Of a stretch of DNA of 35,634 bases, positions 2,522 to 30,480 are shown one piece after another. Made by a program: the position numbers and the translations under genes. Within the stretch, counting starts at the first letter, position 1. Each line of letters starts with the position of its first letter. Below the pieces are notes generated by a model. That model worked only from the letters and a program-made list of their open reading frames with translations. It was not told where the DNA came from and did not search any database. The DNA comes from Actinomycetota bacterium (lineage in GTDB: Bacteria; Actinomycetota; Thermoleophilia; Solirubrobacterales; 70-9), in assembly GCA_018268655.1 (NCBI GenBank), contig JAFDWC010000012.1, forward strand, positions 1-35,634. The letters are read 5' to 3'.

Positions 2522-2533
2522 GAGGAGAGTGCG

Positions 2534-3428: not shown

Positions 3429-4118
3429 ATGGCCGACCGCGACTCCTTCGAGCAGACGCCCTACCAGCTGCCGGCGGGCGCGACCGAGCTGATCCTGGTC
3501 CGCCACGGCGCCTCCTCGCCGCCGCTCGAGGGCGTCCCCAACCCGCTGATCGGCGGCCACTCCGACCCCGCCCTGGCGGCGGCGGGCCTCGCCCAGGCGG
3601 AGCTGGTGGCGGAGGGGCTGCGGCACGAGCCGATCGACGGGATCTTCGTCTCGACCCTGCGCCGGACCGGCGAAACGGCGGCGCCACTGGCGGCGGCGAC
3701 CGGGCTCGATCCGGTCGCCCTGGAGCAGCTGCGCGAGGTCTTCCTCGGCGACTTCGAGGGCGGCGAGTACCGGATCCGGGCCGCCCGCGGCGACCCGGTG
3801 ATCCGCCGCGTCTTCGCCGAGGAACGCTGGAGCGCGATCCCCAACGGCGAGGATTGGGAGAGCTTCTCGACCCGGGTCACCGCCGGGGTCGAGGAGATCG
3901 TCGCCACGGTCGGGCCCGACGCGGTCGCGGTCGCCGTCCTCCACGGAGCGGTGATCGGCCAGCTCTGCCGGCAGGCGACCGCCAGCCGCCCGTTCGCCTT
4001 CGTCCACGCCGACAACGGCTCGATCTCTCGGCTGGTCGTCGACGCCGACGGCAAGTGGCTGCTGCGCAGCTTCAACGACATCTCGCACCTGCGGGTGCGG
4101 ACCGGATCGGCCGGCTGA
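3429..4118 (+). CDS. Histidine phosphatase family protein (phosphoglycerate-mutase-like)
   Basis: The 229-residue product has the R-H-G signature with catalytic His26 (L-V-R-H-G-A). It also has the second catalytic His172 in V-L-H-G-A-V-I-G, and the usual intermediate motif S-T-L-R-R-T-G-E-T-A. Enzymes of branch 1 remove or transfer phosphate through a phosphohistidine; many actinobacterial members are broad phosphatases. It is a single domain of ordinary length without a signal peptide. A TAGCCT hexamer (3410-3415) in front of the ATG could be a -10 box giving a very short leader. A phosphatase beside kinase-like and phosphotransferase-like genes is suggestive, but no specific substrate can be named. 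An alpha/beta hydrolase gene follows after 24 nt with its own AAAGGAG ribosome site. Confidence 0.88.
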   Translation: MADRDSFEQTPYQLPAGATELILVRHGASSPPLEGVPNPLIGGHSDPALAAAGLAQAELVAEGLRHEPIDGIFVSTLRRTGETAAPLAAATGLDPVALEQLREVFLGDFEGGEYRIRAARGDPVIRRVFAEERWSAIPNGEDWESFSTRVTAGVEEIVATVGPDAVAVAVLHGAVIGQLCRQATASRPFAFVHADNGSISRLVVDADGKWLLRSFNDISHLRVRTGSAG

Positions 4119-5597: not shown

Positions 5598-5634
5598 TCG
5601 TGTGCGTGTCCGGGCGCGAGCGCGAGGAGGCGCC
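5574..5634 (+). repeat. 20-bp direct repeat spanning a stop codon and the next ribosome site
   Basis: An identical 20-nt unit occurs at 5574-5593 and 5615-5634 (41-nt period). Each copy contains GCGAGGAGGCGCC. The first copy encodes the last residues (R-E-R-E-E-A-P) of the small PPDK-associated protein. The second supplies the GAGGAGG ribosome site 4 nt before the TTG start of the dikinase gene. A short tandem duplication is the simplest origin. Confidence 0.8.
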
Positions 5635-7233: not shown

Positions 7234-7949
7234 CCGTCAAGCAGGAGGGCAAGAGGCCCTATCCCGACAAGTGGTCGCGCGAGTCGGCGACGCCGCTGGT
7301 CGAGCGCTACCACAGCGCCGTTCGCGCGCTCGCCGCCGATAAGTTCGCCGCCAGCGGCATGTCCTGGGAGCAGGCGGTGGCCGCCGGCGTCCTGATGCCG
7401 ACCAGGGCAGAGCTCGAGCAGATCGAGGCCGACGTCCTCGCCGAGGGCTACCGGTTCGACGTCTCGGCGACGATCTCGCTGAAGGAGGAGCCGGACAAAT
7501 ACAAACCGCTGGCCGGGATCGCCGATTCCGGCGCCCAGGAGAGCGACGAGCAGGGGCGCCTGATCGTCGGCAGCGGCGACAACGTCTTCAAGGCTGCCGC
7601 CGACGTCACCGGGATCGCCCGCTACATCTCCGACGTCGACCGGGTGATGGAGATGCTGACCGGTGGCGTCCCGGAGAACACGGTGGCGATCATCGACGAC
7701 TCCGGCGGCACCCTGACCGCGCCGATCCTCGGCGACTTCACCGCCGTCGTCTGCATGGGCGGCACGGTGCGCTCGCACCTCGGGATCCTGACCCGCGAGT
7801 ACAACGTGCCGTGCCTGATGAACGCCGAGCTCGACGGGCTCGCCGACGGCGACGAGATCACGGTCGAGTACTCCAAACCCGCCGCCGACGCCTATGCCGA
7901 CGCCGGAGCGGCGGCCGAGCACCGCGCGCGCATCATCAAGGTCGCCTAG
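7230..7949 (+). CDS. Stand-alone PEP-utilising mobile (phosphohistidine) domain protein
   Basis: This 239-residue protein contains a second swivel domain: G-D-F-T-A-V-V-C-M-G-G-T-V-R-S-H-L-G-I-L at residues ~169-188, with the presumed phosphorylatable His183, then R-E-Y-N-V-P-C-L-M-N-A-E. The first ~130 residues have no motif I recognise; they include E-E-P-D-K-Y-K-P-L-A-G. It differs from the canonical S-H-A-A swivel of the preceding protein (S-H-L-G here), so it is not a simple duplicate. It starts with GTG overlapping the stop of the dikinase gene, and a strong AGGAGGGGG ribosome site follows for the next gene. As inference, it may relay the phosphoryl group from the dikinase to the substrate subunit, as in phenylphosphate synthase, where the ATP-binding and His parts are on separate chains. 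Confidence 0.72.
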   Translation: MTVKQEGKRPYPDKWSRESATPLVERYHSAVRALAADKFAASGMSWEQAVAAGVLMPTRAELEQIEADVLAEGYRFDVSATISLKEEPDKYKPLAGIADSGAQESDEQGRLIVGSGDNVFKAAADVTGIARYISDVDRVMEMLTGGVPENTVAIIDDSGGTLTAPILGDFTAVVCMGGTVRSHLGILTREYNVPCLMNAELDGLADGDEITVEYSKPAADAYADAGAAAEHRARIIKVA

Positions 7950-7963
7950 GAGGGGGTCCCGAA

Positions 7964-9433
7964 ATGCCGATCAACCACAGCTACGTCGACCTGCTGGAGA
8001 ACAACAACTTCATCCAGAAGTGGGCCGACTCGTTCTTCTTCCAGTGCACGACCCGGACCGTGCAGGAGTCGAAACTGTTCCCGGTCAACCCGTACATCGC
8101 GATGTCGTACTACAACGCCTGGTACCGGTACCCCGAAATCCTCCGCAAGGTCGACGCGGCGCTGCCGGCCGAGGAGATCGGCGACCGCGCCCGCCAGGTG
8201 GGGACCTACTGCAACACGATCTCGATGGGGGTCGGCCCGCAGTTCTACCTCGGCGGCCGCCAGTGGCTGCTCGACATGGGCCTGCTGAAGCCGACCGACT
8301 GCGTCGAAGACATGCTCGACGTGCTCGACTTCTGCCGTCGCCTCAACATGTCCTACCACCGCTCGGAGAACCACATCATGCCGAGCGACGGCAACCACAA
8401 AGACCAGATCCACACCGCCCGCCAGACCGAGTTCTTCGAAGACGGGGCGATCGGGGTGACCCCGGGCGACAAGCTCCACACCGCCTTCACGCACTTCATG
8501 GCCGCCGTCTCCGCCTACGGCTTCCTCAGCCACTGCGAGTGCCGGCTCAGCTTCTGCAACCACGGTCCCTACCGGACCCGCGACGGCAACCAGATGCTGG
8601 TCCGCGACGCGGTCGACCTCGCCGAGTGCGACTTCCCCTGGATGGACGGGGCGGCGCGGGAGATCGAGCACAACAACCTGACGATCCCGGTGGTGATGAA
8701 GGACACCGACTTCTACATGGTCGACGACTGGGGCAGCTTCGAGGCGAAGCCGTCATACGACAACCAGAACCTGGTCGCGATCGGGCTCTACACCTCCGAC
8801 TGGCTCTCCGACGGCTACGTCCCCGTCCACATGGACAGCGCTTCCGAGCTCGCCGACTACCTCGACGACCAGCGCGAGAAGATGGAAAGGGCGACCGCCG
8901 AGATGTGGCAGATGATGGCCGGCTGGACCCGTGAGCAGATGGTCGACGCGGGGCTGCTGGTGTACTTCGCGATCCTCAAGGACGTCGCCCACTTCGCCGG
9001 CGAGTACGACCAGGACGACTGGTTCCTGGTCGACGATCGCACCCAGCTGTTCCGGCCGCTGATGAACGACGAGTACGGCAACTCGGCGATCGCCGAGCTG
9101 GTCGGGCTGGTCTCGCTGACCTCGCAGGACCGCGGCCCGCACCGGATGGAGCGCTACTCGCGCGACCGCACCGAGATGTGGACCTCGATCCCCTACTCGG
9201 TCCTCGCCGACGACGACTGGACCGCCGGGGTCGGGCCGATCGGGCCGGGCAGCAGCTCGCTGCCGCCGAAAACGGCGAAGTGGACGACCACCCTCGGCAA
9301 GCTCAGCCAGGACGAGTGCAACGCGGCCGCCAAGCAGTTCCACTCGGCCAAGTACGACCTCCGCCATTACGACGACGACGTCTGGGCCAAGAACAACCCC
9401 GACGCCGAGCAGACGACGGCGCTGGCGAGCTAG
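7964..9433 (+). CDS. Unrecognised 489-residue protein of the dikinase operon
   Basis: I do not recognise this family. It has 489 residues, no signal peptide and no membrane segment. It is unusually rich in aromatic, Asp, His and Met residues and has few of the Ala/Arg runs seen in its neighbours, which suggests a tightly constrained enzyme or binding subunit. Notable stretches: F-F-F-Q-C-T-T-R-T near residue 25, Y-H-R-S-E-N-H-I-M-P-S-D-G-N-H near 130, and H-C-E-C-R-L-S-F-C-N-H-G-P-Y near 185 (three Cys and two His close together, possibly a metal site). Later come W-D/W-F-L-V-D-D-R-T-Q-L-F-R-P-L and T-S-Q-D-R-G-P-H-R-M-E-R-Y. The gene sits 14 nt after the swivel-domain gene behind AGGAGGGGG and 9 nt before a reductase. 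By position it is the best candidate for the substrate-binding subunit that replaces the missing PPDK barrel. Confidence 0.8.
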   Translation: MPINHSYVDLLENNNFIQKWADSFFFQCTTRTVQESKLFPVNPYIAMSYYNAWYRYPEILRKVDAALPAEEIGDRARQVGTYCNTISMGVGPQFYLGGRQWLLDMGLLKPTDCVEDMLDVLDFCRRLNMSYHRSENHIMPSDGNHKDQIHTARQTEFFEDGAIGVTPGDKLHTAFTHFMAAVSAYGFLSHCECRLSFCNHGPYRTRDGNQMLVRDAVDLAECDFPWMDGAAREIEHNNLTIPVVMKDTDFYMVDDWGSFEAKPSYDNQNLVAIGLYTSDWLSDGYVPVHMDSASELADYLDDQREKMERATAEMWQMMAGWTREQMVDAGLLVYFAILKDVAHFAGEYDQDDWFLVDDRTQLFRPLMNDEYGNSAIAELVGLVSLTSQDRGPHRMERYSRDRTEMWTSIPYSVLADDDWTAGVGPIGPGSSSLPPKTAKWTTTLGKLSQDECNAAAKQFHSAKYDLRHYDDDVWAKNNPDAEQTTALAS

Positions 9434-13457: not shown

Positions 13458-15617
13458 ATGGCGACGGGAGCTGGGAGCGAGGAGCACGACCCGCGGGTGC
13501 TGGCGATCGACGCCGGCGGCACGATGACCGACACCTTCATCGTCGACGGCGCCGGCGCCTTCGTCGTAGGCAAGGCGCAGACGACTCCGCAGGACGAGTC
13601 GGTCGGGCTGATGCATTCGGCCGAGGACGCGATGCGGCAGTGGGACTCGACCACGGAGGCGGCGTTCCCGCAGATCCAGTCGGCGGTCTTCAGCGGCACC
13701 GCGATGCTGAACCGGCTGCTGACCCGTCGCGGCCGCCGCGTCGGCGCCCTCGTCACCGCCGGCCAGGAGGACGCGCTGCAGATGGAGCGGGGGATCCAGA
13801 CCTACCTCGGCTTCTCCTACGCCGACCGCCTCCACATCGCCACCCACCACCACAACGAGCCGCTGATCCCGCGCTCGCGGATGCACGGCGTCCGCGGTCG
13901 GATCGACCTCTTCGGCAACGAGGTGCTGCCGCTGCGCGAGGAGGACGCCCGCGCGGCCGCCGCGGCGCTGCTCGACGACGGGGTCGAGGGGATCGTCGTC
14001 TCGCTGATCTTCAGCTACCGCAACCCCGCCCACGAGCAGCGGGTCCGCGAGATCCTCGAGGAGGAGAAGGCGAGGCGCGGCCACAACGGCGACTGCCCGA
14101 TCTTCGTCTCCTCCGAGCTCTACCCCTCGCGGCGCGACTTCCCGCGCCTCAACACGACGGTGATCGAGGCCTACGCGGCCGAGCCCTCCCGCGGCACCCT
14201 GCGCGCCGTCCGCGACCGCACCAAGGAGCGCGGCGCCGGCTTCGAGCTGCGGGTGATGGCCTCCCATGGCGGCACGATCTCGATCGACGCCGAGCAGCTG
14301 GCGACGACACTGGTCAGTGGCCCGATCGGCGGTGTCGTCGGCGCCCGTTGGCTCGCCGACCGGATCGACCTCGACAACGTCCTCTGCACCGACATCGGCG
14401 GCACCTCCTTCGACATCGCCCTGCTGACCGGCAAGCGCTACGAGGTGACGACGACCCCGGACATGGCGAAATTCCTGCTCAACATGCCGCTGGTGCAGAT
14501 CGACTCGGTCGGCGCCGGCTGCGGCTCCTTCGTCCGCATCGACCCCAACGCGCGCCGGCCCGAGGTCGGCCCCGACTCGGCCGGGGCGATGATCGGCACC
14601 GCCTGGCCCGAGGGCGGGGTCGAGACCGCCTCGATCACCGACCTCAACCTCGTCCTCGGCCGGCTCAACCCCGACTACTTCCTCGGCGGCCAGGTCCAGC
14701 TCGACGTCGAGCGCGCCCGCCACGAGGTCAGGCGCCAGGTCGCCGACCCGCTCGGGCTCGGGGTCGAGCAGGCGGCGGCCGGGGTGATCGAGCTGTTCGA
14801 GACCTCGCTCCGCAACGAGGCGGTCGGCCGCATCCTCGGCAAGGGCTACAGCCCGGCCGACTACACCCTGCTCTGCTACGGCGGCGGCGGGCCGCTGCAC
14901 GTCGGCGGCTACACCCGCGGCGTCCCCTACCAGCAGGTGCTGGTGCCGGAGTGGGCGGCCGGGTTCTCGGCCTTCGGCTGCGCCTGCGCCGAGTTCGAGT
15001 ACCGCTTCGACCGCCAGGTCGACCTGCCGCTGCTGCCGACCGCAGCGGAGGCCGAAAAGGTGGCGATGGGCGGGATCCTGACCCAGGCCTGGCGCTCGCT
15101 CGAGGAGCGTGTCCGCGCCGAGTTCGCGAAGTCGGGATACGCCGCCGGGGAGGTCTCCTTCACCCACATGGTGCGGATGCAGTACTACGGCCAGCTGGTC
15201 GACATCGAGGTCGACGCGCCGCGGCCGGCGATCGAGTCGATCGCCGACGTCGAGGAGCTGGTCGAGACCTTCGAGCGGACCTACACGCGGATGTACGCGC
15301 GGGCGGCCTCCTCGCCGGAGCTCGGGTACCTGGTCGCGCAGGCGATCGTCAAGGGCTCGGTCCCGATCGAGAAGCCGACGCTGCCGGTGATGCCGCGCGA
15401 GTCGGGGTCGCCGCCGGTGAAGGAGACGCGCCAGGTCTGGTGGTCCGACGGCTACGCGACCACCGACGTCTACGAGATGGACGACGTCCGCAACGGCCAC
15501 GCGATCGAGGGCCCGGCGGTGCTCGAGGCCGAGTCGACCACCTTCCCGATCCCGCCCGACCGCCGCGCCTGGCTCGACGAGCACGGGATCTTCCACCTCG
15601 AGAACAAGGAGGCCTGA
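13458..15617 (+). CDS. acxA: Acetone carboxylase beta-subunit-type protein (AcxA; HyuA/hydantoinase A superfamily)
   Basis: The 719-residue protein matches AcxA (about 717 residues) in length. Its N-terminal nucleotide motif is I-D-A-G-G-T-M-T-D-T-F (residues 17-27); T-M-T-D-T-F is what I expect for ketone carboxylases, as opposed to hydantoinases. The second phosphate motif is D-I-G-G-T-S-F-D beginning at Asp312. In acetone carboxylase this subunit binds ATP, which is cleaved to AMP and two phosphates to activate the ketone (enol phosphate) and bicarbonate. Other motifs include S-G-P-I-G-G and G-G-G-G-P-L-H. The ATG at 13458 has no ribosome site but fits a leaderless transcript. The AcxB-type gene follows after 5 nt. 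Acetophenone carboxylase or N-methylhydantoinase subunits are alternatives, but the attached gamma domain downstream favours the acetone type. Confidence 0.82.
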   Translation: MATGAGSEEHDPRVLAIDAGGTMTDTFIVDGAGAFVVGKAQTTPQDESVGLMHSAEDAMRQWDSTTEAAFPQIQSAVFSGTAMLNRLLTRRGRRVGALVTAGQEDALQMERGIQTYLGFSYADRLHIATHHHNEPLIPRSRMHGVRGRIDLFGNEVLPLREEDARAAAAALLDDGVEGIVVSLIFSYRNPAHEQRVREILEEEKARRGHNGDCPIFVSSELYPSRRDFPRLNTTVIEAYAAEPSRGTLRAVRDRTKERGAGFELRVMASHGGTISIDAEQLATTLVSGPIGGVVGARWLADRIDLDNVLCTDIGGTSFDIALLTGKRYEVTTTPDMAKFLLNMPLVQIDSVGAGCGSFVRIDPNARRPEVGPDSAGAMIGTAWPEGGVETASITDLNLVLGRLNPDYFLGGQVQLDVERARHEVRRQVADPLGLGVEQAAAGVIELFETSLRNEAVGRILGKGYSPADYTLLCYGGGGPLHVGGYTRGVPYQQVLVPEWAAGFSAFGCACAEFEYRFDRQVDLPLLPTAAEAEKVAMGGILTQAWRSLEERVRAEFAKSGYAAGEVSFTHMVRMQYYGQLVDIEVDAPRPAIESIADVEELVETFERTYTRMYARAASSPELGYLVAQAIVKGSVPIEKPTLPVMPRESGSPPVKETRQVWWSDGYATTDVYEMDDVRNGHAIEGPAVLEAESTTFPIPPDRRAWLDEHGIFHLENKEA

Positions 15618-15622
15618 CGGCG

Positions 15623-18421
15623 ATGGCGACGATCGAGAAGACCCGCGTCCTCGAGCCCGACGAGCGGGCCCCGATCGGCTGGGACGGGCAGACGCTGGCG
15701 CAGATGCTGGCCGCCTCGGAGGCCGCCTTCGAGCAGACGGGCCACTACCACGGGCTGCGCGAGCTGGCGATGAAGGAGTCCGACCCGCTCCACTTCGAGA
15801 AGCTCTTCTCGCGGGTCCGCGGCGGCATGGTCACCGCCCGCGAGACCGCGCTCAACATCTCCGCCTCGCCGATCGTCCGCGAGCTCGGCGAGATCTGCTT
15901 CGCGCTCTACACGCCGGAGGGCGACAACGTCGCCCTCTCGACCGGGATCATCGTCCACGTCCACACGATGAGCGAGGCGATCAAGTTCATGGTGCGGAAC
16001 GGCTGGGAGGACAACCCCGGGATCGCCGCCGGCGACATCTTCGCCAACAACCAGCCGACGATCGGCGACGTCCACAACGCCGACGTCCAGACCTTCGTCC
16101 CGATCTTCAACCCCGAGGACGAGGGCGAGCTGCTGGGCTGGGCCGGCGGCGTGATCCACGTGATGGACATCGGCGCCTCGACCCCGGGCGGGGTCTGCGT
16201 CGCCCCGACCACCCGCTTCGACGACGGCATCGACCTCCATTGCATGAAGATCGGCGAGCGCGACACGCTCGCCCAGTGGCACACCAAGCGGGTCTCGATG
16301 CAGAGCCGCGCGCCGGGCCTCTACCTGCTCGACGAGCGCACCCGGCTGGCCGGCTGCCACATGATCCGCGACGCGGTCGAGCGGCTGGTCCTGGAGGAGG
16401 GCGCCGAGCCGTTCAAGCGGTTCATGCGCGAGGCGATCGAGGACGGCCGCCGCGACTTCAAGTCGCGGGTCCGCGGGCTGCTGGTCCCCGGCCGCTACCG
16501 CTCCGCCGGCTTCACCGAGGCGAAATACGCCAACAAGCAGAACCTGCCGAAGCGGGCCCAGCGCGACCTGATCATCCACGGCGCCTACGAGGCGGTGGTC
16601 GACCGCGACGGCCGCTGGACCACCGACCTGCGCGGCTCCTCGGCCTGGGGCTGGCACTCGTTCAACGCGACCCCGGCGGCGCAGCAGGGGATGCAGTGGA
16701 TCCTCTTCACCCAGACCCTGATCTGCAACGACAAGATCAACGACGGCGCCTACTACGCGACCGAGCTGCTGCTGACCGAGGGCAGCTGGGCCGACCTCGG
16801 CCAGGCGCCGTGCTCCTCCTCGTTCCCCTGGATGCCGATGTTCACGACCTCGACCGGGTACCTGCAGGCGATCTCCCGCGCCCTGCAGTCGCGCGGCTAC
16901 ATCGAGGAGATCGTCTCCACCTACACGGTGCCCGGGAACGTCGCCCAGGGTGGCGGGATCGACCAGTACGGGCAGATCTCCGGCTTCATGAACTTCGAGA
17001 TCGGGGCCCAGGGGCAGGGCGCCAAGTACGTCCTCGACGGTCTCGACTACGGCGCCGCCGTCTTCAACCCCGAGGGCGACATGGGCGACATCGAGATGTG
17101 GGAGCTGGTCAAGCCGATGGTCTACCTCGGGCGCCGGATCAAGCCCAACACCGGTGGCTGGGGACGGCACCGCGGCGGCTCCTCGTTCGAGACGCTGCTG
17201 CTGGTCAACGGGACCGATGATTTCGAGATCGAGAACATCGGCGCCGGCGGCATGCTGACCTCGCCCGGCCTGTTCGGCGGCTACCCGGCGCCGAGCGCAT
17301 ACGTCCACAACGTCTTCGGCTCCGACGTCTTCGAGCAGGCTGCCGCCGGCGCCGCCTACCCGGTCGGCGACGTCAGCGGCGAGGAGACCGCGCTGGCGGC
17401 GTTCGCCGGCGAGCACCAGCTCGAGCAGGACCCCTACACGATGATGATCGCGGTCCGCACCGGCGACCTCTACCTCAGCAGCGGCCGCGGCGGCGGCGGC
17501 CTCGGCGACCCGCTGCTGCGCAGCGAGGAGCGGGTCGAGGAGGACATCGCCGGCGGCCACCTGCAGCGGCGCTGGGCCGAGCGCGCCTACGGCCTCGGCG
17601 GCCGCGAAGGGCTGATGCAGGCGCGGCTGGCACGGGCGCGGCCGGCTCGCGAGTGGTGGGCCGAGCAGCGGCAGCGGATCCTCGCCGGCGAGCTGATCGA
17701 GCCGGTGCAGGTGATGTACGCGGAGTCGATGCGGCTGGAACCGCGCTGGGCGGCCGAGTTCCGTGGCTTCTGGGACCTGCCCGAGGACTTCGAGTTCGAG
17801 GTCGTCACCCCGACCACGGCGAGCCAGCGCTCCGAGCCGGGGAAGCTGACTCCGGAGGACTCGGTGCGCCAGTTCCTCGCCGGCTCCGAGGTCTTCCTGC
17901 CCGCCGACCTGCACCAGGTCCCGATCACCACCGAGGTCAGCGCCGAGACCCTCGCCGACCTGCTCGACGAGAAGCTGAGCCGGCGCGCGGTGAAGGAGAT
18001 CCAGACCGGGATCAAGGACCCGGACCGGTTCGAGAAGTGGGTGGCGCTGCTGCAGGCCCGGGTCGACTACGACGACCCGATCGTGCTGCCCTACGGCGAG
18101 GGCATGAACATCGTCCGCCGCGCCGCCGACGGCGAGCTGGTGATCCGCACCGACGCCGGCGCCGACCTCTGCCGCTGGGACGAGAACTGGAAGCTGAGCG
18201 TGCCGGTCTTCGTCCGCGACAGCGACGAGCTCTACGAGGAGGTCTACCCCGAGCTCGGCCACCCCGACGGCGAGTGGCAGGAGCTGCGCGAGTACTACTG
18301 CCCGCTGTCCGGGCGCCTGCTGGAGACCGAAGCAGTACCGCCCGGCTACCCGGTGATGCACGAGTACCTGCCCGACATCGAGGGCTTCTACTCGGGCTGG
18401 CTCGGCCGCGACGTCCCCTAG
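15623..18421 (+). CDS. acxB: Acetone carboxylase alpha subunit fused to gamma subunit (AcxB-AcxC fusion; HyuB superfamily)
   Basis: The 932-residue protein has two parts. Residues 1 to ~745 are an AcxB-type hydantoinase B protein with I-I-V-H-V-H-T-M, N-N-Q-P-T-I-G-D-V-H-N-A-D-V (Asp149, His151 and Asp154, probable metal ligands), W-A-G-G-V-I-H-V-M-D-I-G and a late S-S-G-R-G-G-G-G-L-G-D-P. Residues ~771-932 resemble the separate AcxC subunit (~168 residues in Xanthobacter): D-P-D-R-F-E-K-W, I-V-L-P-Y-G, C-R-W-D-E-N-W-K-L-S, R-E-Y-Y-C-P and Y-P-V-M-H-E-Y-L-P-D-I-E-G-F-Y. The total equals alpha plus gamma. Known enzymes are alpha2-beta2-gamma2 and carboxylate acetone to acetoacetate. In the gamma part only one Cys remains of each pair that I recall as zinc-binding in AcxC. 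The ATG at 15623 follows acxA by 5 nt. A 35-bp palindrome follows the stop. Confidence 0.82.
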   Translation: MATIEKTRVLEPDERAPIGWDGQTLAQMLAASEAAFEQTGHYHGLRELAMKESDPLHFEKLFSRVRGGMVTARETALNISASPIVRELGEICFALYTPEGDNVALSTGIIVHVHTMSEAIKFMVRNGWEDNPGIAAGDIFANNQPTIGDVHNADVQTFVPIFNPEDEGELLGWAGGVIHVMDIGASTPGGVCVAPTTRFDDGIDLHCMKIGERDTLAQWHTKRVSMQSRAPGLYLLDERTRLAGCHMIRDAVERLVLEEGAEPFKRFMREAIEDGRRDFKSRVRGLLVPGRYRSAGFTEAKYANKQNLPKRAQRDLIIHGAYEAVVDRDGRWTTDLRGSSAWGWHSFNATPAAQQGMQWILFTQTLICNDKINDGAYYATELLLTEGSWADLGQAPCSSSFPWMPMFTTSTGYLQAISRALQSRGYIEEIVSTYTVPGNVAQGGGIDQYGQISGFMNFEIGAQGQGAKYVLDGLDYGAAVFNPEGDMGDIEMWELVKPMVYLGRRIKPNTGGWGRHRGGSSFETLLLVNGTDDFEIENIGAGGMLTSPGLFGGYPAPSAYVHNVFGSDVFEQAAAGAAYPVGDVSGEETALAAFAGEHQLEQDPYTMMIAVRTGDLYLSSGRGGGGLGDPLLRSEERVEEDIAGGHLQRRWAERAYGLGGREGLMQARLARARPAREWWAEQRQRILAGELIEPVQVMYAESMRLEPRWAAEFRGFWDLPEDFEFEVVTPTTASQRSEPGKLTPEDSVRQFLAGSEVFLPADLHQVPITTEVSAETLADLLDEKLSRRAVKEIQTGIKDPDRFEKWVALLQARVDYDDPIVLPYGEGMNIVRRAADGELVIRTDAGADLCRWDENWKLSVPVFVRDSDELYEEVYPELGHPDGEWQELREYYCPLSGRLLETEAVPPGYPVMHEYLPDIEGFYSGWLGRDVP

Positions 18422-22302: not shown

Positions 22303-23058
22303 ATGGCGATCCTTGTCACCGGGGGGTCGAGCGGGCTCGGCCGCGCGATCGCCGAGCGCTTCGCCCGCGACGGTGCTGACTCTGCGGCCGAGGGCACCGA
22401 CGTCTTCGTCAACTTCCACGCCGACGATGCGGCGGCGGCCGAGGCCGAGGCGGCGATCGCCGCCGCCGGCGGCATCCCGCACCTGATCAAGGCCGACGTC
22501 GGCAGCGTCGACGGGGTCCGCGAGGTGATCGAGGTCGTCCGCGCCCACACCGACCACCTCGACCAGCTCGTCCACTGCGCGGCGAAGGCGGTCAACGGGC
22601 CACTGCTCGAGCTCGACCCCGGGCAGCTGCGCGAATCGGTGATCGTCAACGGCCTCGCCATGGTCGACCTGATCCGCGAGGCCGGGTCGCTGCTCGGCCC
22701 CGGCAGCGTCGTCTTCTACCTCTCCAGCCGCGGCGGCCGCTTCGTGATCAACGAATATGGCGCCCTCGGCATCGCCAAAGCGCTCGGCGAGCACGTCGTC
22801 CGCTACCTCGCCAAGGAACTCGGCCCGCGCGGGATCCGGGTGATCACGATCGCCCCCGGCGCGGTCGACACCGCGGCCCTGCGGGCGATGTTCCCCGGCA
22901 CCTACCAGGACCGGCTCGCCGCCGCCGCGAAGGCCAACCCGCTCGGGCGCGGGGTCGAGCTCGAAGACGCCGCGGCGCTGGCCGCGGCGCTCTGCGACCC
23001 CGGCCTGGAGATGGTCAACGGCCAGACGATCACCGTCGACGGGGGCCTCTCGCTTTGA
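22303..23058 (+). CDS. SDR-family protein with a Y-x6-K active site (FabL/FabI enoyl-reductase style)
   Basis: The 251-residue protein begins with the SDR cofactor motif T-G-G-S-S-G-L-G. Its active-site pair is Tyr152/Lys159 in Y-G-A-L-G-I-A-K, a Y-x6-K spacing. Classical SDR dehydrogenases have Y-x3-K, whereas FabI/FabL enoyl-ACP reductases have Y-x6-K. The following A-L-G-E-H-V-V-R-Y-L-A-K-E-L also recalls FabL. An enoyl-thioester or dienoyl reductase role is therefore more likely than alcohol oxidation. The ATG has no ribosome site but lies where a leaderless start is predicted. Its stop overlaps the TTG start of the ligase (TTGA). In the LvaD position of a levulinate-type cluster one would expect a classical SDR, so the assignment to that step is uncertain. 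Confidence 0.8.
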   Translation: MAILVTGGSSGLGRAIAERFARDGADSAAEGTDVFVNFHADDAAAAEAEAAIAAAGGIPHLIKADVGSVDGVREVIEVVRAHTDHLDQLVHCAAKAVNGPLLELDPGQLRESVIVNGLAMVDLIREAGSLLGPGSVVFYLSSRGGRFVINEYGALGIAKALGEHVVRYLAKELGPRGIRVITIAPGAVDTAALRAMFPGTYQDRLAAAAKANPLGRGVELEDAAALAAALCDPGLEMVNGQTITVDGGLSL

Positions 23059-24671
23059 GCCTGCCGTCAGCAGGAGGGGCCCAGGACTTCCCGCTGACGC
23101 TGACCCACCTCCTGCGCCGCGCCCGCGGCGTCAACGGCGACGCCGAGGTGGTGACGGCGCTCGACGCCGGCGGCCGGGTCGAGCGGGCGAGCGCGGCGGC
23201 GGTCGGCGAGCGGGCCGAGGCGCTCGCCGCCGGCCTGGCCGGGCTCGGCCTCCGCGCCGGGGATCGGGTTGGCGTCTTCGCCTGGAACACCCGCCAGCAC
23301 CTCGAGGCCTACTGGGGGGTTCCCTGCGCCGGGCTCGTCCTGCACACGATCAACCCGCGGCTCTCCCCCGAGCAGATCGCCTTCACCGTCCGCCACTCCG
23401 GCGACCGCGCGATCGTCGTCGACGGCGCCCTGCTCGGCGCCCTCGAACGCGTGCTCGAGCTGCTCGGCGGCGAGGGGGTCGAGCACCTGATCACGATCGA
23501 TGCCGGCGACGCCGCCCCGCCCGGCGCCCACGATTACGAGCTGCTGCTCGCCGCCGCCGGCCCCTACGAGTGGCCGGCCCTCGACGAGCGCGCCGCCGCG
23601 GCCCTCTGCTACACCTCGGGCACCACCGGCGACCCCAAGGGCGTCGCCTACTCGCACCGCTGCCTCGCCCTCCACACGATCCTGATGGCGGGCGCCGACA
23701 CCTACCGGATCGGCCGCCGCGACCGCGTCCTCGCCGTCGTCCCGATGTTCCACGCGATGGGCTGGAACCTCGCCTACCTGGCGGGGATGACCGGCGCCGA
23801 CCTGATCCTCCCCGGCCGCTTCCTCCAGCCCGAGCCGCTGACCAGGCTGATCGAGGCCGAGCGCGTGACCGCCAGCTGCGGGGTGCCGACGATCTGGATG
23901 GACGTGCTGCGCTACGCCGACGAGCACGGCTCCGACCTCTCCGCCTTCGAGCTGGCGATCTGCGGCGGCACCCAGGTCCCGCCGCAGCTGATGCGCGACT
24001 TCGAGGCCCGCCACGGGGTCGCCGTCGTCCAGGGCTGGGGGATGACCGAGACCCTGCCCGGCGCCGTCCTCGCCCACGACCCGCCCGGCGCCGACGAGGA
24101 GGAGCGCTGGCGCCGCCGCGAGCAGGCGGGCCGGGTCAGCCCCTTCTACGAGCTGCGGATCCTCGGCGACGACGGCGCCGAGCTGCCCCGCGACGGCGCC
24201 AGCCAGGGGGAGATCCAGGTCCGCGGCCCGGTCGTCGCCGGCTCCTACTTCGAGGCGCCGGCGGCGAGCGCCGCCGCCTTCGACGGCGGCTGGCTGCGGA
24301 CCGGCGACGTCGGCACCCTCGACGAGCGCGGCTGGCTGCGGATCACCGACCGCGCCAAGGACGTGATCAAGTCCGGCGGCGAGTGGATCTCCTCGGTCGA
24401 CCTCGAGTCGGCGCTGATGGCGCACCCGGCGGTGGCCGAGGCGGCGGTGATCGCGATCCCCGACGAGCGCTGGAGCGAGCGGCCCTTCGCCTGCGTCGCC
24501 GCCGCCGACGCGGTCGAGGCGGAGGAGCTGACGGCGTTCCTCTCGGCCCGCGGGGTCCCGCGCTGGTGGCTGCCGGACGGCTTCGCCTTCGTCGCCGAGA
24601 TCCCGAAGACGAGCGTCGGCAAGTTCGACAAGAAGGCCCTGCGGGGCACCTACGCGGAAGGCGGTGAGTGA
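23055..24671 (+). CDS. AMP-dependent medium/long-chain acyl-CoA synthetase-type ligase
   Basis: The 538-residue ANL-family protein has Y-T-S-G-T-T-G-D-P-K-G from residue 186, V-P-M-F-H-A-M-G-W-N, G-W-G-M-T-E-T and the hinge W-L-R-T-G-D-V-G-T and D-R-A-K-D-V-I-K-S-G-G-E-W-I-S-S. The catalytic Lys is Lys523 in S-V-G-K-F-D-K-K. G-G-E-W-I-S-S and the overall length match the fatty-acyl-CoA ligase branch (as in LvaE and DMSP lyase-pathway ligases). The TTG start overlaps the preceding stop by 4 nt and the gene overlaps the next start by one base, so the three genes form a translationally coupled operon. It probably makes the CoA ester on which the divergent kinase/ACAD pair acts. Confidence 0.88.
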   Translation: MSLPSAGGAQDFPLTLTHLLRRARGVNGDAEVVTALDAGGRVERASAAAVGERAEALAAGLAGLGLRAGDRVGVFAWNTRQHLEAYWGVPCAGLVLHTINPRLSPEQIAFTVRHSGDRAIVVDGALLGALERVLELLGGEGVEHLITIDAGDAAPPGAHDYELLLAAAGPYEWPALDERAAAALCYTSGTTGDPKGVAYSHRCLALHTILMAGADTYRIGRRDRVLAVVPMFHAMGWNLAYLAGMTGADLILPGRFLQPEPLTRLIEAERVTASCGVPTIWMDVLRYADEHGSDLSAFELAICGGTQVPPQLMRDFEARHGVAVVQGWGMTETLPGAVLAHDPPGADEEERWRRREQAGRVSPFYELRILGDDGAELPRDGASQGEIQVRGPVVAGSYFEAPAASAAAFDGGWLRTGDVGTLDERGWLRITDRAKDVIKSGGEWISSVDLESALMAHPAVAEAAVIAIPDERWSERPFACVAAADAVEAEELTAFLSARGVPRWWLPDGFAFVAEIPKTSVGKFDKKALRGTYAEGGE

Positions 24672-25522: not shown

Positions 25523-26347
25523 ATGGACAACGCCGCTTTCGCCGCCTCCTACTCGCAGCCGATCGGGCCCGGCAGCGCCTACGGGCCGCCGCCCTACCTC
25601 TACCGCGACGTCGAGGACTGCTTCATCGTCTACGAGGCCGACCGCGCCGGCGTCGAGTCGCTGCTGCCGCCGGGGCTGGAGATCGCCGACGAGGTGCCGA
25701 CCTGCATCGCGTGGGCGCGCTGGGTCCCGTTCTCGACCTTCGGCCAGTACCACGAGGCCTACATCATGGTCCGCGCCAGCTTCGAGGGCCAGACCTACCT
25801 CTACCAGCCGTTCATCTTCGTCGACAACGAGATCCCCCTCACCGCCGGCCGCGAGATCTGGGGGTACGCGAAGAAGCTCGCCGTCTTCGAGCGCAACTGG
25901 GGCGGCGGCGAGGTGCCCTTCGGCGAGCAGATGGTCTTCACCGTGCAGCGGCCGCAGGGGCAGCCGATCATGACCGCGACGATGATCGCCGACCGGGTCG
26001 CCGACCCCGGCGAGCTCGACGACGTGCCGGTGCTCTCGACCCGGATCATCCCCAACTCCGAGCCCGGCAAGCGCCCCTCGGTCGCCGAGCTGGTCCGGCT
26101 CGACGTGCCGGCGACCCTCCACACCGCCCAGGACGGCACCCCTCGCCTGTTCGCCGGCCGCGGCTCGCTCTCGCTGCCGACGGTATCCAGCGTCGACCCC
26201 TGGTACCTGCTGGCGCCAACCCGGATCGTCGAGTCCTACTTCGGCGTCTTCGACTTCGACCTCCCGCACGGCCGGGTGATCCACGACTACCTGGATGAAG
26301 ACGAGATCTGGCAGTCGGTCGAGAGCGGCAAGTTGGCGGCGGCGTAG
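25523..26347 (+). CDS. Acetoacetate decarboxylase (ADC) family protein
   Basis: The 274-residue protein has the ADC fold signature G-R-E-I-W-G-Y-A-K-K with Lys117/Lys118. The first Lys corresponds to the Schiff-base Lys of acetoacetate decarboxylase and the second tunes its pKa. L-L-P-P-G-L-E near residue 50 is also typical. Classical ADC turns acetoacetate into acetone and CO2. Many actinobacterial relatives act on other keto acids, as aldolases or dehydratases. Being 7 kb from an acetone-carboxylase-type enzyme it could run the opposite reaction or process another beta-keto acid. It is a single-gene unit with its own promoter and is followed by 309 nt without a gene. Confidence 0.85.
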   Translation: MDNAAFAASYSQPIGPGSAYGPPPYLYRDVEDCFIVYEADRAGVESLLPPGLEIADEVPTCIAWARWVPFSTFGQYHEAYIMVRASFEGQTYLYQPFIFVDNEIPLTAGREIWGYAKKLAVFERNWGGGEVPFGEQMVFTVQRPQGQPIMTATMIADRVADPGELDDVPVLSTRIIPNSEPGKRPSVAELVRLDVPATLHTAQDGTPRLFAGRGSLSLPTVSSVDPWYLLAPTRIVESYFGVFDFDLPHGRVIHDYLDEDEIWQSVESGKLAAA

Positions 26348-26656: not shown

Positions 26657-27319
26657 CTAGCTGGTCTCCCGAGACGCCCCGATCGGGTTTCCGAAGCGCT
26701 CCAGGAAAACGGTCTCCTCCACGGGGCGCCTGGTGAGACGGCGCGGGAAGCCGTCGGCGGGGTAGCCGGCGGCGAGATGGCAGGCGGTCAGGTAGCCGTC
26801 GGGGATCGCCAGCAGCTCGCGCACCTCGGGCTCGGCGGCGACCGAGAGGGTGGTGATCGTCGTCGCCACCCCCTGCACGCGCAGGGCGATGCAGAGGTTC
26901 TGGACGTAGGGGTAGATCGAGGCCCCGCCGACCACCGAGGGACGGTCGAGCTCGAGGTCGGTGAGGTGGAGGTCCTCCTGGTGGGCGCAGACGACGATCA
27001 GCAGCGGGTGCTCCGCGAGGTTGCGGGCGAACTCGTCGGCGGCGAGGACCGCCTGCCGTGCCGAGGAGTACTCGCCGAGTGCCTGCGTCCCCGCCATCGC
27101 CGCCTCGAAGTAGGCTCGCCAGGGCACCAGGTAGAGGTCTCGCAGCCGCTCTTTCGCCGCCCGCTCGCGGACGGCGATGAGCCGCACCGGTTGGCGGTTG
27201 CCGCCCTGCGGCGCGAACCGCGCCGCCTCCGCCGCTCGGTAGAGGACCGCGTCGGGGACGTCGTCGGGCTGGTAGCGGCGGCAGGCGCCGATCGTCCGCA
27301 TCGCCTCGAGCGCGTCCAC
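26657..27319 (-). CDS. Nitroreductase-family protein
   Basis: The 220-residue protein begins A-M-R-T-I-G-A-C-R-R-Y and continues A-A-R-F-A-P-Q-G-G-N-R-Q-P-V-R, the FMN-binding pattern of nitroreductases. A second conserved region G-G-A-S-I-Y-P-Y-V-Q-N-L-C-I-A-L-R lies near residue 125. These are FMN-dependent NAD(P)H oxidoreductases acting on nitro groups, quinones or activated double bonds. The GTG at 27319 was chosen because it lies 5 nt after the stop of the upstream minus-strand gene, implying cotranscription. The normal fold starts there. The physiological substrate is unknown. Confidence 0.85.
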   Translation of the reverse strand: MDALEAMRTIGACRRYQPDDVPDAVLYRAAEAARFAPQGGNRQPVRLIAVRERAAKERLRDLYLVPWRAYFEAAMAGTQALGEYSSARQAVLAADEFARNLAEHPLLIVVCAHQEDLHLTDLELDRPSVVGGASIYPYVQNLCIALRVQGVATTITTLSVAAEPEVRELLAIPDGYLTACHLAAGYPADGFPRRLTRRPVEETVFLERFGNPIGASRETS

Positions 27320-27324
27320 CGTCC

Positions 27325-28830
27325 TCAGCCCCCGGCGCCCGCCCCGTTCCGCCCGGCGCCGCCGGCCTCCTCGGCGCCGCGCAGCTGCACCGAGATCCCC
27401 GGCTGGCGCAGGGTCAGGTGCTTGACCGAGCTCTCGTTCTCGATCAGTTCGACGACCCGTTCGAGGACGCCGTCGCCGTGGACGTGGCCCTCGGTCCGCA
27501 GCGGCGGCCCGGCCAGCATCTTGTCGACCTGCTCCTCGGGGCAGAAGTAGCGCAGCAGCAGCTCCTCGTCGGAGATCTTCTGGCCGAACCGCTTGCGGAA
27601 CTCGGCGACCGGGGTGCGGTCGCGTTCCCACCCCTCGAGTTCCTTCGCCCGCGGCTTGCTGAAGATCCTCTCGGCGACCTCGGGGTCGACCGGCCGCATC
27701 AGCGGCCCGTAGTGCCCCATCGCGTACTGGATCACTTCGTCCGGGACCACCTGGTAGCGCTCCGGCAGGACCACGTTGAGGACCGCCTGGATGCCGACGA
27801 ACTGGGAGAACGGGGTCGCCATCACCGGCTCGCCGAGCTCGCTGCGGACGATCACGATCTCCTCGATCACCTGCTGGAACCGCTCCGGCATCCCGTACTC
27901 GTCGAGCTGGTTCTTCAGGGTCCCGGTCATGCCGCCGGGGAGCTGGTGTTTGTAGGGGAGCATCCGGTACTCGTTCGGCACCCCGACCTCGTAGCCGAGC
28001 CGCGCCGCTTCGGCGTAGAAGTGGTCCGAGACCGGCTTCAGGTGGGATTTGTCGAGGTTGTGGGTGTGGCCGAGCTCCTCGACGATCTCGACCATCGCCT
28101 CGGTCGAGGGCAGCGAGGGGCCGTTGGCGAGCGGCATCGTCGCGGTGTGGACGAGGTCGATCCCGGCCTTGATCGCCTCGACGTAGACGAGCGGCGCCAG
28201 GCCGGTGGTGTTGTGGGAGTGGATCTCCAGCCGCACCTCGCCGGTCGCCTCCTGCAGCGCCGGCAGCAGCGTCGCCGCCCGCTCCGGGGTCAGGACCCCG
28301 GGGGCGTCCTCGACGTAGATCCGCTTGATCCCGTCCCAGCTCGCCATTTCGCGGGCGCGGTCGGCGAAGAACTCGTCGGTGTGGAGCTCGGAGAGCCCGT
28401 ACATGATCGCCGGCACGACTTCGCCGCCGACCGCCTGCAGCGCCTCGGTCCGCGTCTTCATCAGCGGCATGTCGTAGAGGCAGTCGAAGAGCCAGTGGCT
28501 CTGGACCCCATGCTTGACCAGGGTCTCGATCCAGAGGTCGAGGATGCCTTCCGGGACGAAGCCGAAGCTGCCGGCGGCGACCGGCCGCAGGGCGGAGCGC
28601 AGCGGCGCGTCCGGGAGGTGGCTGACGGTGTGGTCGAGCCAGGCCCAGGGGTCGTCGCCGGAGTCGCGCATCATCACCACCATGCTGGTGGCGCCGAGCA
28701 GGTCGATCGTGTCGAACCCGGTCGCGTTCAGGTGCGGCAGCGCCGGGGTCGCGTGCTGGGCCCGCATCCGCATCCCCCACAGGCTCTGAGGCCCGTCGCG
28801 CAGGGTCTGGTCGATGAACCCGATCTCCAT
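27325..28830 (-). CDS. Carboxyltransferase-like TIM-barrel protein (HMGL / PYC-OADA family) with Lys-to-Glu change
   Basis: The 501-residue protein resembles the carboxyltransferase part of pyruvate carboxylase, oxaloacetate decarboxylase alpha and transcarboxylase 5S. It has D-Q-T-L-R-D-G-P-Q-S-L at residues 7-17, metal-binding H-S-H in E-I-H-S-H-N-T-T-G-L-A, H-Q-L-P-G-G-M, and a C-terminal conserved domain. The family's carbamylated Lys in I-K-D-M is replaced: the sequence reads I-Y-V-E-D-A-P-G, with Glu174 at that place. No biotin domain or biotin carboxylase gene is nearby. The enzyme may thus be a metal-dependent lyase or aldolase and not a biotin carboxyltransferase. The ATG at 28830 starts exactly at the barrel. 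It lies between an exporter gene and the nitroreductase on the minus strand. Confidence 0.8.
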   Translation of the reverse strand: MEIGFIDQTLRDGPQSLWGMRMRAQHATPALPHLNATGFDTIDLLGATSMVVMMRDSGDDPWAWLDHTVSHLPDAPLRSALRPVAAGSFGFVPEGILDLWIETLVKHGVQSHWLFDCLYDMPLMKTRTEALQAVGGEVVPAIMYGLSELHTDEFFADRAREMASWDGIKRIYVEDAPGVLTPERAATLLPALQEATGEVRLEIHSHNTTGLAPLVYVEAIKAGIDLVHTATMPLANGPSLPSTEAMVEIVEELGHTHNLDKSHLKPVSDHFYAEAARLGYEVGVPNEYRMLPYKHQLPGGMTGTLKNQLDEYGMPERFQQVIEEIVIVRSELGEPVMATPFSQFVGIQAVLNVVLPERYQVVPDEVIQYAMGHYGPLMRPVDPEVAERIFSKPRAKELEGWERDRTPVAEFRKRFGQKISDEELLLRYFCPEEQVDKMLAGPPLRTEGHVHGDGVLERVVELIENESSVKHLTLRQPGISVQLRGAEEAGGAGRNGAGAGG

Positions 28831-28923: not shown

Positions 28924-30366
28924 CTACGTGCTGGCCGCGACCGCCGCCGCCCGGCGGGCGCGGGCGCTGGTGGTCACCCCGCCGACGACGAGCGCGACCA
29001 GGCCGCAGAGGGCGATGATCGCCCAGCTGATCCGCGCCGCTGAGGTGAAGCCGGCGCCGGGCCCGACCGTGGTCACGTGCTCGGCGATCACCGAGCCGAT
29101 CACCGCCACCCCGAGCGCCGAGCCGAGCTGGCGGGTGGTCGAGGCGATCGCCGCGGCGACGCCGGCCTGCTCCCGCGGCATCCCGGCGACGGCGGTGTCG
29201 GTGATCGCAGGGTTGAGCAGGCCGAGCCCGGCCCCGAGCAGGACGTAGGCGAGGAACAGGCGCAGGTCCGACGGTTCCCCCGCCGGCAGTGCCGAGACGA
29301 GGCCGGCGGCGAGGACCGCGGCGCCGCCGAGCAGCAGCGGCGCGCGGGCGCCGCGGCTGCCGGTCATCCGCCCCGAGAGCGGCGCCGTGATCATCATCGT
29401 CGCCGCCATCGGGATCAGCGCGACCCCGGCGTGCAGCGCCGAGTAGCCGCGCACGTCCTGCAGGTAGAGGGTGCTGAGGAAGAGGAAGCCGCCAAGCGAG
29501 AAGAAGGCGCAGGTCGCGACGACGGCGGCGCCGCTGAACGGCGGCGAGCGGAAGAAGCGGAGGTCGATCAGCGGTTCGGGGTGGCGGCGCTCGTAGGCGA
29601 CGAACCCGACCAGGGCCGCCAGCGAGGTGGCGAAGCAGGTGAGGATCAGGGCCGAGCCCCAGCCGTGCTCGGGCGCCTCGATGATCCCGAAGACGAGCAG
29701 CCCGATCGTGGCGATCATCAGCACCTGCCCGACCGGGTCGAGCCGGCGCGGGTGGGCCGCCCGCGACTCGGGGACGAAGCGGGAGCTGAGGGCGATCGCC
29801 GCCAGCCCGACCGGGACGTTGATCCAGAAGATCGAGCGCCAGCCCAGCGCCTGCACCAGCAGGCCGCCCAGCAGCGGGCCGCTGGCGATGCTGATCCCGG
29901 CGACGCCGCCCCACCAGCCGATCGCCCGCGCCCGCTCCGAGGGCTCGGTGAAGACGTTGGTGACGATCGAGAGCGCGACCGGGTTGAGCATGCTGCCGCC
30001 GATCGCCTGCAGCATCCGGAAGCCGATCAGCCAGCCGAGGCCGGGGGCGAGGCTGCAGAGCAGCGAGCCGGCGGTGAACGAGGCGAGGCCGATCTGGAAG
30101 GTGCGGCGGCGGCCGAGCCGGTCGCCGGTCGAGCCGGCGAGCAGCAGCAGGCTGGCGATCACCAGCGTGTAGGCGTCGATCGTCCACTGGGCGCCGGAGA
30201 CCGAGCTGCCGAATTCGCGCTGGATCGACGGCAGGGCGACGTTGAGGATCGTCACGTCGAGCCCGACCATGAGGATGCTGAGGCAGCAGATCGCCAGCAC
30301 CAGTTTGGGGCGGACCGGCGCGCGCCGCTCCGCCGCCGCGCCGAGGTCGGCTGGAGCCGAGTCCAT
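28924..30366 (-). CDS. MFS drug/metabolite exporter, DHA2 (14-TM, EmrB/QacA) type
   Basis: The 480-residue membrane protein has about 14 hydrophobic segments. Near the N-terminus is the DHA2 signature L-D-V-T-I-L-N-V-A-L-P-S-I-Q, followed by loop motif G-D-R-L-G-R-R-R. It is a proton-driven exporter of drugs or lipophilic compounds in the cytoplasmic membrane. The ATG at 30366 with an AGGTG site was chosen over longer in-frame starts, because it leaves a normal ~25-residue cytoplasmic tail before TM1. The gene precedes the carboxyltransferase-like and nitroreductase genes on the same strand, separated from the former by 93 nt. Confidence 0.9.
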   Translation of the reverse strand: MDSAPADLGAAAERRAPVRPKLVLAICCLSILMVGLDVTILNVALPSIQREFGSSVSGAQWTIDAYTLVIASLLLLAGSTGDRLGRRRTFQIGLASFTAGSLLCSLAPGLGWLIGFRMLQAIGGSMLNPVALSIVTNVFTEPSERARAIGWWGGVAGISIASGPLLGGLLVQALGWRSIFWINVPVGLAAIALSSRFVPESRAAHPRRLDPVGQVLMIATIGLLVFGIIEAPEHGWGSALILTCFATSLAALVGFVAYERRHPEPLIDLRFFRSPPFSGAAVVATCAFFSLGGFLFLSTLYLQDVRGYSALHAGVALIPMAATMMITAPLSGRMTGSRGARAPLLLGGAAVLAAGLVSALPAGEPSDLRLFLAYVLLGAGLGLLNPAITDTAVAGMPREQAGVAAAIASTTRQLGSALGVAVIGSVIAEHVTTVGPGAGFTSAARISWAIIALCGLVALVVGGVTTSARARRAAAVAAST

Positions 30367-30480
30367 CACCTCATTCTCGCCGACCCGTTTTTCGTCCAGC
30401 CCGATGCGGCCGGCGTTGCCCCGAGCGCCACGCCCAAGGCGAAGAAGCACCGCCGCGCGGACCACTGAGCCGCCCAGCCG

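Follow-up and report, generated by a model that had tools for sequence, protein, structure and literature searches.

The closest described relatives of the protein analysed here are the carboxyltransferase (CT) subunits PycB (PDB 5ks8), OadA (2nx9) and transcarboxylase 5S (1rqb/1s3h). In pyruvate carboxylase, oxaloacetate decarboxylase and transcarboxylase, a carbamylated lysine counts as a component of the machinery and is regarded as essential. The DRE-TIM metallolyases, i.e. DmpG aldolase, HMG-CoA lyase and 2-isopropylmalate synthase, resemble the protein in their barrel and their Asp/His/His metal-ligand motifs. No active CT lacking the carbamyl-Lys was found in the mostly open-access literature that we searched by title and abstract start.

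Ketone carboxylases of the Hpe, Acv and Xcc kind, e.g. HpeCBA of Rhodococcus rhodochrous GD02, are described as working with a dikinase, a three-part biotin carboxylase, a phosphatase, a CoA ligase and beta-ketoacyl-CoA cleavage (PMC9618137). According to that description of the hydroxyphenylethanone pathway, HpeHI phosphorylates 4-hydroxyacetophenone, the biotin-dependent HpeCBA carboxylates the phosphorylated ketone and HpeD then takes off the phosphate, with a ligase and a hydrolase proposed for the last steps (PMC9618137). The two accounts PMC8461187 and PMC9618137 differ on which subunit is the CT, the former giving XccBCA as the biotin carrier (BCCP), the biotin carboxylase (BC) and the CT, respectively, and the latter pointing to the order BCCP-CT-BC, so that gene order is not a safe mark of such a cluster. 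Acetophenone and acetone carboxylase, which have homologous genes in our window and of which the same conversion of a ketone to a beta-keto acid is expected, use no biotin and are unrelated to the CT.

By the window we mean the whole 35.6-kb stretch of DNA that was analysed. The CT gene and the codons of its expected active site are located as follows.

27325..28830, minus strand: CT subunit of 501 aa, DRE-TIM-type barrel plus PYC_OADA domain, with Glu174 in the carbamyl-Lys column
28309..28311, minus strand: codon of Glu174 (GAG), placed in the carbamylated-Lys column by the 5S alignment
28795..28797, minus strand: codon of Asp12, an expected metal ligand, aligned to the 5S Asp and invariant in alignment A2
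28213..28221, minus strand: codons of His204-Ser205-His206, expected metal ligands, aligned to the two 5S His
27814..27816, minus strand: codon of Thr339, in what we take to be the catalytic-Thr column known from pyruvate carboxylase; Thr in 153/153 sequences

The CT reading frame runs uninterrupted for 501 aa from an ATG at 28830 to a stop codon at 27327-27325, and its translation contains DQTLRD (D7-D12), IYVEDAPG with E174, and then H204-S-H206. It matches the Pfam domains PYC_OADA (PF02436) with 93 bits (cut-off 27) and HMGL-like with 41.1 bits (cut-off 29). Its scores are below the cut-off for each of the 21 NCBIfam models listed, the best being pyruvate carboxylase subunit B (280.7 vs 402 bits), and the DRE-TIM models are all missed, i.e. 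4-hydroxy-2-oxovalerate aldolase (47.4 bits against a cut-off of 229), 2-isopropylmalate synthase (36.3 against 517) and HMG-CoA lyase (29 against 246). A sequence search gave PycB 5ks8, OadA 2nx9 and transcarboxylase 5S as the nearest solved chains. We predicted the 3D structure with AlphaFold, using 43 aligned sequences (alignment A2) as the input; the model has a mean pLDDT of 88.3, and residues 170-175 form a strand. Compared with known structures, the model aligns to PycB, OadA and 5S at Z of 40.5-44.0 across 431-450 residues. Its match to the DmpG-type aldolases has Z of ~30 and covers 317-319 residues only, reaching model residue 360 and leaving out most of the C-terminal domain of the CT.

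As judged from its sequence, the window protein agrees with the canonical CT family in the whole-domain fold, the PYC_OADA domain, the Asp and two His ligands and the catalytic Thr column; genomic partners like those of the family are seen with its relatives. It departs from the family in having Glu for the carbamyl-Lys, in falling under the 21 listed NCBIfam cut-offs and in having no BC or BCCP gene in the window. Since the fold matches PycB, OadA and 5S and 50 of the 153 sequences compared have Glu here, the observation on Glu174 is not due to chance.

Residue 174 and the metal site

In the phmmer alignment with the 5S chain 1s3h, E174 pairs with chain residue 195, while D12 falls on the Asp and H204 and H206 fall on the two His. 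Taking Asp23 of the literature as chain residue 34 (an offset of 11) would make chain residue 195 Kcx184. The initial annotation had read the protein as a CT-type barrel with the metal motifs kept and Glu in the carbamyl-Lys column, and the alignment to 5S, together with the PYC_OADA domain and the whole-domain fold match, bears this out. A Lys reaching the metal centre from another position, which it had named as grounds for refutation, was rejected: E174 is aligned without a gap up to D175 and G178, both of them invariant. The mutants T882A and T908A are named in the PDB titles among the structure matches of the CT.

Homologues were gathered from 396 genomes of the phylum, 399 of the class, a scan of named genomes (77 loci kept), plasmids and four further groups. 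The comparison of 153 distinct sequences used part of the gathered loci, with identical proteins and those of <300 aa left out. The carbamyl-Lys column holds Glu in 50 of them (the window protein included), Tyr in 49, Lys in 39, Gly in 13, Ala in one and Ser in one, i.e. 114 of the 153 have no Lys. Outside this count, 23 loci comprise 2 with Glu, 20 with Lys and 1 unreadable, and seven others comprise 2 with Tyr, 4 with Lys and 1 unreadable. None of the 77 loci from the named-genome scan has Lys, which gives no estimate of frequency because the scan patterns were built from Lys-less sequences.

Residue 176 is Ala in 50/50 Glu-type sequences, Glu in 15/15 of the Gly/Ala/Ser type and Thr in 47/49 of the Tyr type. 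Over the 153 sequences, residue 204 is His except for Gln in 4/50 Glu-type and Asn in 1/49 Tyr-type proteins, and residue 206 is Asn in 44/49 Tyr-type proteins and His in everything else. The exclusive placement of Glu, at either 174 or 176, suggests from these alignments that one carboxylate is required on this strand.

We built a tree by a quick method from 93 of the 153 sequences (<80% identity) with the strand columns removed. Sixty-six Lys-less sequences, having Glu, Tyr, Gly, Ala or Ser in the column, form one branch with support 89, which is not a starred one. The Tyr-type L191 is placed outside this branch, and hence two changes between Lys and non-Lys are needed over the whole tree; L034 and L040 are long branches joined together. 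For the shift of Glu from position 174 to 176, the tree requires three changes (the Gly group, L143 and L098). A sign test of this swap gives p 0.5, with only two independent pairs on starred branches, and with so few events the swap cannot reach significance by this test. On the evidence of these comparisons, the loss of Lys is a character of this whole, little-studied CT branch and no oddity of the window protein.

The loss of a residue regarded as essential might also point to an inactive or regulatory pseudo-CT. We consider this highly improbable, given that the substitution is conserved over a large branch, with D12 present in 49/49 readable Glu-type sequences and T339 in 50/50, and that the model is a confident one by its mean pLDDT.

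The Tyr-type CTs, e.g. L157:10001-11443, have Tyr for Lys and in 44/49 cases Asn for the second metal His, yet 41/49 have BC or BCCP within 3 kb. From their sequences, they are possibly carboxyltransferases with an altered metal or none. In the sister group that keeps Lys (with LKDPGG or KDPAG, e.g. L036, L072, L206 and L227), column 82 is mostly non-Arg; it is Arg in 7/39 of all the Lys-type sequences.

Search for biotin partners in the window, its genome and the relatives

No BC or BCCP was found in the 35.6-kb window by tblastn with BC and BCCP. The remark of the initial annotation that no biotin partner is encoded nearby thus stands for the window; it does not stand for the genome as a whole or for the relatives. 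On contig C275 of the same genome, the locus L033 has a BCCP gene at 1182-1811 and a BC gene at 1816-3201 in a row with a Gly-type CT paralogue. This good BCCP-BC pair already has its adjoining CT, and the only other BCCP match in the assembly, which is 79% complete, is weak (E 6.5e-9).

BC or BCCP genes lie within 3 kb of 86 of the 114 Lys-less CTs (Glu 30/50, Tyr 41/49, Gly 13/13, Ala 1/1, Ser 1/1) and of 36/39 Lys-type CTs, with the loci ended by a contig edge scored as misses. Linked Glu174 CTs that are 52-56% identical to the window CT were seen in Nocardioides, Acrocarpospora, Pseudonocardia, Georgenia and Rhodococcus, among others, and relatives of this identity stand directly behind BCCP-BC; a BCCP-BC-CT set is present in Nocardioides carbamazepini (L106). 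The Glu-type CTs of L093 and L094 are ~590 aa long and have the BC gene directly behind them; the additional residues at the C-terminus possibly form a fused carrier domain.

All 9/9 searched genomes with a separately encoded Glu- or Tyr-type CT gave a BCCP match; these matches may include acetyl-CoA carboxylase carriers. In two genomes a CT-less BCCP-BC pair is on the contig of the separate CT itself, ~10 kb away in G756 and ~19 kb away in G706, and in G731 the BCCP-BC pair extends to the contig end. For 17 of the 20 unlinked Glu-type CTs, the assembly also has a linked CT or a BCCP-BC pair (the window, L083, L102 as presumed, L104, L087, L084, L085, L086, L111, L112, L113, L118, L129, L131, L115, L116b and L120); L128 has BC and BCCP ~9 kb off, and the check covered all the 20 except L123 and L139. 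The genome of L166 has three tandem CT copies and one BCCP. These CT-less BCCP-BC pairs, tandem CTs with a single BCCP and unlinked CTs in partner-bearing assemblies indicate that several CTs per BC/BCCP recur in this branch. Three tandem Tyr-type CT paralogues, together with one BCCP and with dikinase, ligase and thiolase genes, lie in a Rhodocyclaceae MAG (L223:8506-12908).

We rejected decay of the unlinked members. Among the 30 linked Glu174 sequences 61 columns are invariant, and each of the 20 unlinked ones departs from 0-3 of these, vs 0-6 of 61-67 columns for the linked sequences when left out in turn.

The initial annotation had suggested that the protein may bind a metal with Glu in place of the carbamyl-Lys and do lyase or aldolase chemistry. 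On this view the CT would have become a biotin-independent DRE-TIM metal lyase, decarboxylase or aldolase. The lack of BC and BCCP in the window agrees with this, as does their absence around the closest relatives L102, L103 and L104 (77, 73 and 87% identical) in 3.5, 21.5 and 9.3 kb, respectively, and so does the resemblance of the barrel to the DmpG-type aldolases at Z ~30. Glu is presumably at this column in 2-isopropylmalate synthase too, a point which we count in its favour. However, relatives of the same branch are linked to BC/BCCP, the CT-specific PYC_OADA domain and Thr339 are retained, and the unlinked members have no loosening of the conserved columns. The annotation had named a carrier encoded with the CT as evidence against itself, and relatives do have one, in BCCP-BC-CT runs and as same-contig pairs in two genomes. 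It had also wanted homologues collected; 50 of the 153 have the Glu, and biotin genes lie within 3 kb of 30 of the 50. We set the biotin-independent lyase aside as unlikely because the relatives, Glu174 ones included, are linked to biotin genes. Since most of the examined relatives adjoin biotin partner genes, the CT probably still transfers CO2 and is not an aldolase.

Neighbouring genes and the candidate substrate

The other genes of the window considered here are listed below.

26657..27319, minus strand: nitroreductase-family gene (Pfam PF00881), a few bases downstream of the CT; GTG start at 27319 likely
28924..30465, minus strand: MFS transporter (Pfam PF07690), upstream of the CT on the same strand
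25523..26347, plus strand: acetoacetate decarboxylase (ADC) family protein, with relatives in 7/10 Gly-type loci of at least 12 kb
23055..24671, plus strand: AMP-forming acyl-CoA ligase, the nearest ligase to the CT (NCBIfam PRK06187, 567.1 bits, cut-off 476)
998..2521, plus strand: second AMP-forming acyl-CoA ligase (Pfam AMP-binding)
3429..4118, plus strand: histidine phosphatase, whose relatives adjoin the Gly-type BCCP-BC-CT operons L033, L091 and L092
5158..7233, plus strand: dikinase-like gene (PPDK_N and PEP-utilizer), start uncertain; Tyr-type carboxylase operons contain a homologous dikinase
7811..9433, plus strand: second dikinase-associated gene, no Pfam match, start uncertain
13458..15617, plus strand: HyuA-like subunit, hydantoinase/oxoprolinase (Pfam Hydantoinase_A)
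15614..18421, plus strand: HyuB-like subunit, start uncertain (tblastn match 15665-17329)

All on the strand opposite to the CT, the nearest ligase is 2.7 kb away from it, the dikinase-like genes are at ~18-22 kb and the phosphatase is at ~23 kb. It is possible that the nearest ligase activates a carboxylated product. No thiolase match was found in the window.

We counted the gene content of loci of at least 12 kb, some of them ended by contig edges (Glu 40, Tyr 28, Gly 10 and Lys 11 loci). Acyl-CoA ligase was found in 27/40 Glu-type, 24/28 Tyr-type and 7/10 Gly-type loci vs 1/11 Lys-type ones, and thiolase in 12/40, 20/28 and 6/10 vs 0/11, respectively; catabolic clusters often have such ligase and thiolase links, and the Lys control has 11 loci only. 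In the same order, the ratios are 6/40, 25/28 and 0/10 vs 0/11 for the dikinase (PPDK_N), 8/40, 1/28 and 0/10 vs 0/11 for 3-oxoacid CoA-transferase A, and 2/40, 0/28 and 7/10 vs 0/11 for the ADC-family protein of the window type. Two distinct ADC-family proteins accompany the Gly-type operons of at least 12 kb, the window type (25523-26347) in 7/10 and the L033 type (L033:10312-11103) in 5/10. Annotated Glu-type loci contain a 3-oxoacid CoA-transferase gene, or dikinase, thiolase and phosphatase genes; on plasmid pRB98 of Rhodococcus oxybenzonivorans, the genes of a dikinase, BCCP, BC, a Glu-type CT, a thiolase and a phosphatase follow one another.

The likeness to the Hpe logic is seen in the gene kinds: L180 has similar ones, and other relatives have the dikinase, the ligase and the thiolase. 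No recognisable HpeCBA/XccBCA/AcvCDE cluster was found in the genus of L119 (37 genomes), the genus of L157 (94), the family of L166 (12) or the family of L110 (341). L220, a Tyr-type locus of Sphingobium with a BCCP, was tried as a characterised cluster; having no dikinase and no BC match, it was not taken for one. As the gene content of the relatives mirrors the hydroxyphenylethanone pathway and the window has dikinase-like, phosphatase, ligase, ADC-family and HyuA/HyuB genes, a ketone carboxylase is our best guess. The substrate of the CT, which we infer from this gene content, is probably a ketone and the product a beta-keto acid.

The dikinase-like genes at 5158-9433 have homologues in the carboxylase operons of the Tyr type, e.g. 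L157. The locus L088 has a Tyr-type CT flanked by a ligase and by the ADH_N_2 reductase behind the dikinase-partner gene, and the window has no CT at that place.

The HyuA-like subunit belongs to what we take to be the acetone and acetophenone carboxylase superfamily. An alternative is that the CT has left biotin in this lineage and that a HyuA/HyuB-type ATP-dependent carboxylase of the same cluster supplies the activated carboxyl or the phospho-ketone. The HyuB and HyuA genes end ~9 and ~12 kb from the window CT, and genes of the HyuA/HyuB cluster (13458-18421 in the window) neighbour the Glu-type CTs of L084 and L085 and the Tyr-type CT of L088. However, HyuA occurs in only 5/40 Glu-type and 1/28 Tyr-type loci of at least 12 kb, and also in 1/11 Lys-type ones, and by their Pfam names the HyuA/HyuB relatives include hydantoinases and oxoprolinases too. 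In G706, HyuA is directly behind the BCCP-BC pair, which indicates that HyuA and biotin systems coexist. We regard such a switch of carboxyl donor as still less likely than the biotin-independent lyase. The window HyuA/HyuB could instead be the carboxylase of this pathway.

A working model of the proposed carboxylase

We give a probability of roughly two in three to the reading that the protein works as the CT of a split biotin-dependent carboxylase whose other subunits come in trans. It would belong to a Lys-less PycB/OadA-like branch and transfer a carboxyl group to a ketone, with a carboxylate at 174 or 176 replacing the carbamyl-Lys. The sequence, the predicted fold, the gene linkage of the relatives and the swap pattern are the observations behind it, and from them we infer the in-trans partnership, the ketone substrate and the role of Glu. 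BC would charge BCCP with CO2, spending ATP; the carboxybiotin would swing into the CT, and the CT would move the carboxyl group onto the alpha-carbon of the ketone to give a beta-keto acid. A ligase or a CoA-transferase, with a thiolase, would then consume the product. BC and BCCP would be supplied in trans from another locus of the genome, for which the pair beside the Gly-type paralogue is a candidate.

The metal site would keep Asp12, His204 and His206, and the carboxylate at 174 (176 in the Gly/Ala/Ser type) may serve as a water-mediated ligand or a base. Glu174 could hold the metal through a water, or act as the base that draws a proton from the ketone, and Glu176 could play the same role from the next inward position of the strand. 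A Glu is shorter than a carbamyl-Lys and is unlikely to extend to the same metal position on its own; for this reason, and because Tyr-, Gly- and Ala-type relatives exist, direct ligation of the metal by Glu is only one possibility. In the Tyr/Asn group, where the carboxylate and one His are lost, metal binding may be weak or absent.

A broader proposal, which we offer tentatively and rate at a little below even odds, is that the whole biotin-dependent CT branch works without the carbamyl-Lys and uses a carboxylate at 174 or 176 instead. The sub-branch with Tyr174 and mostly Asn206 would have changed or dropped the metal, and the substrates would be unactivated or phosphorylated ketones and not alpha-keto acids. 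Such a large natural branch, in which the Lys is missing while the fold, the catalytic Thr and, in most of the members examined, the biotin partners are retained, would offer a test of the roles of the carbamate and of the metal. It also suggests that the products of genes annotated simply as 'carboxyltransferase' may convert ketones to beta-keto acids when lignin products and pollutants are degraded.
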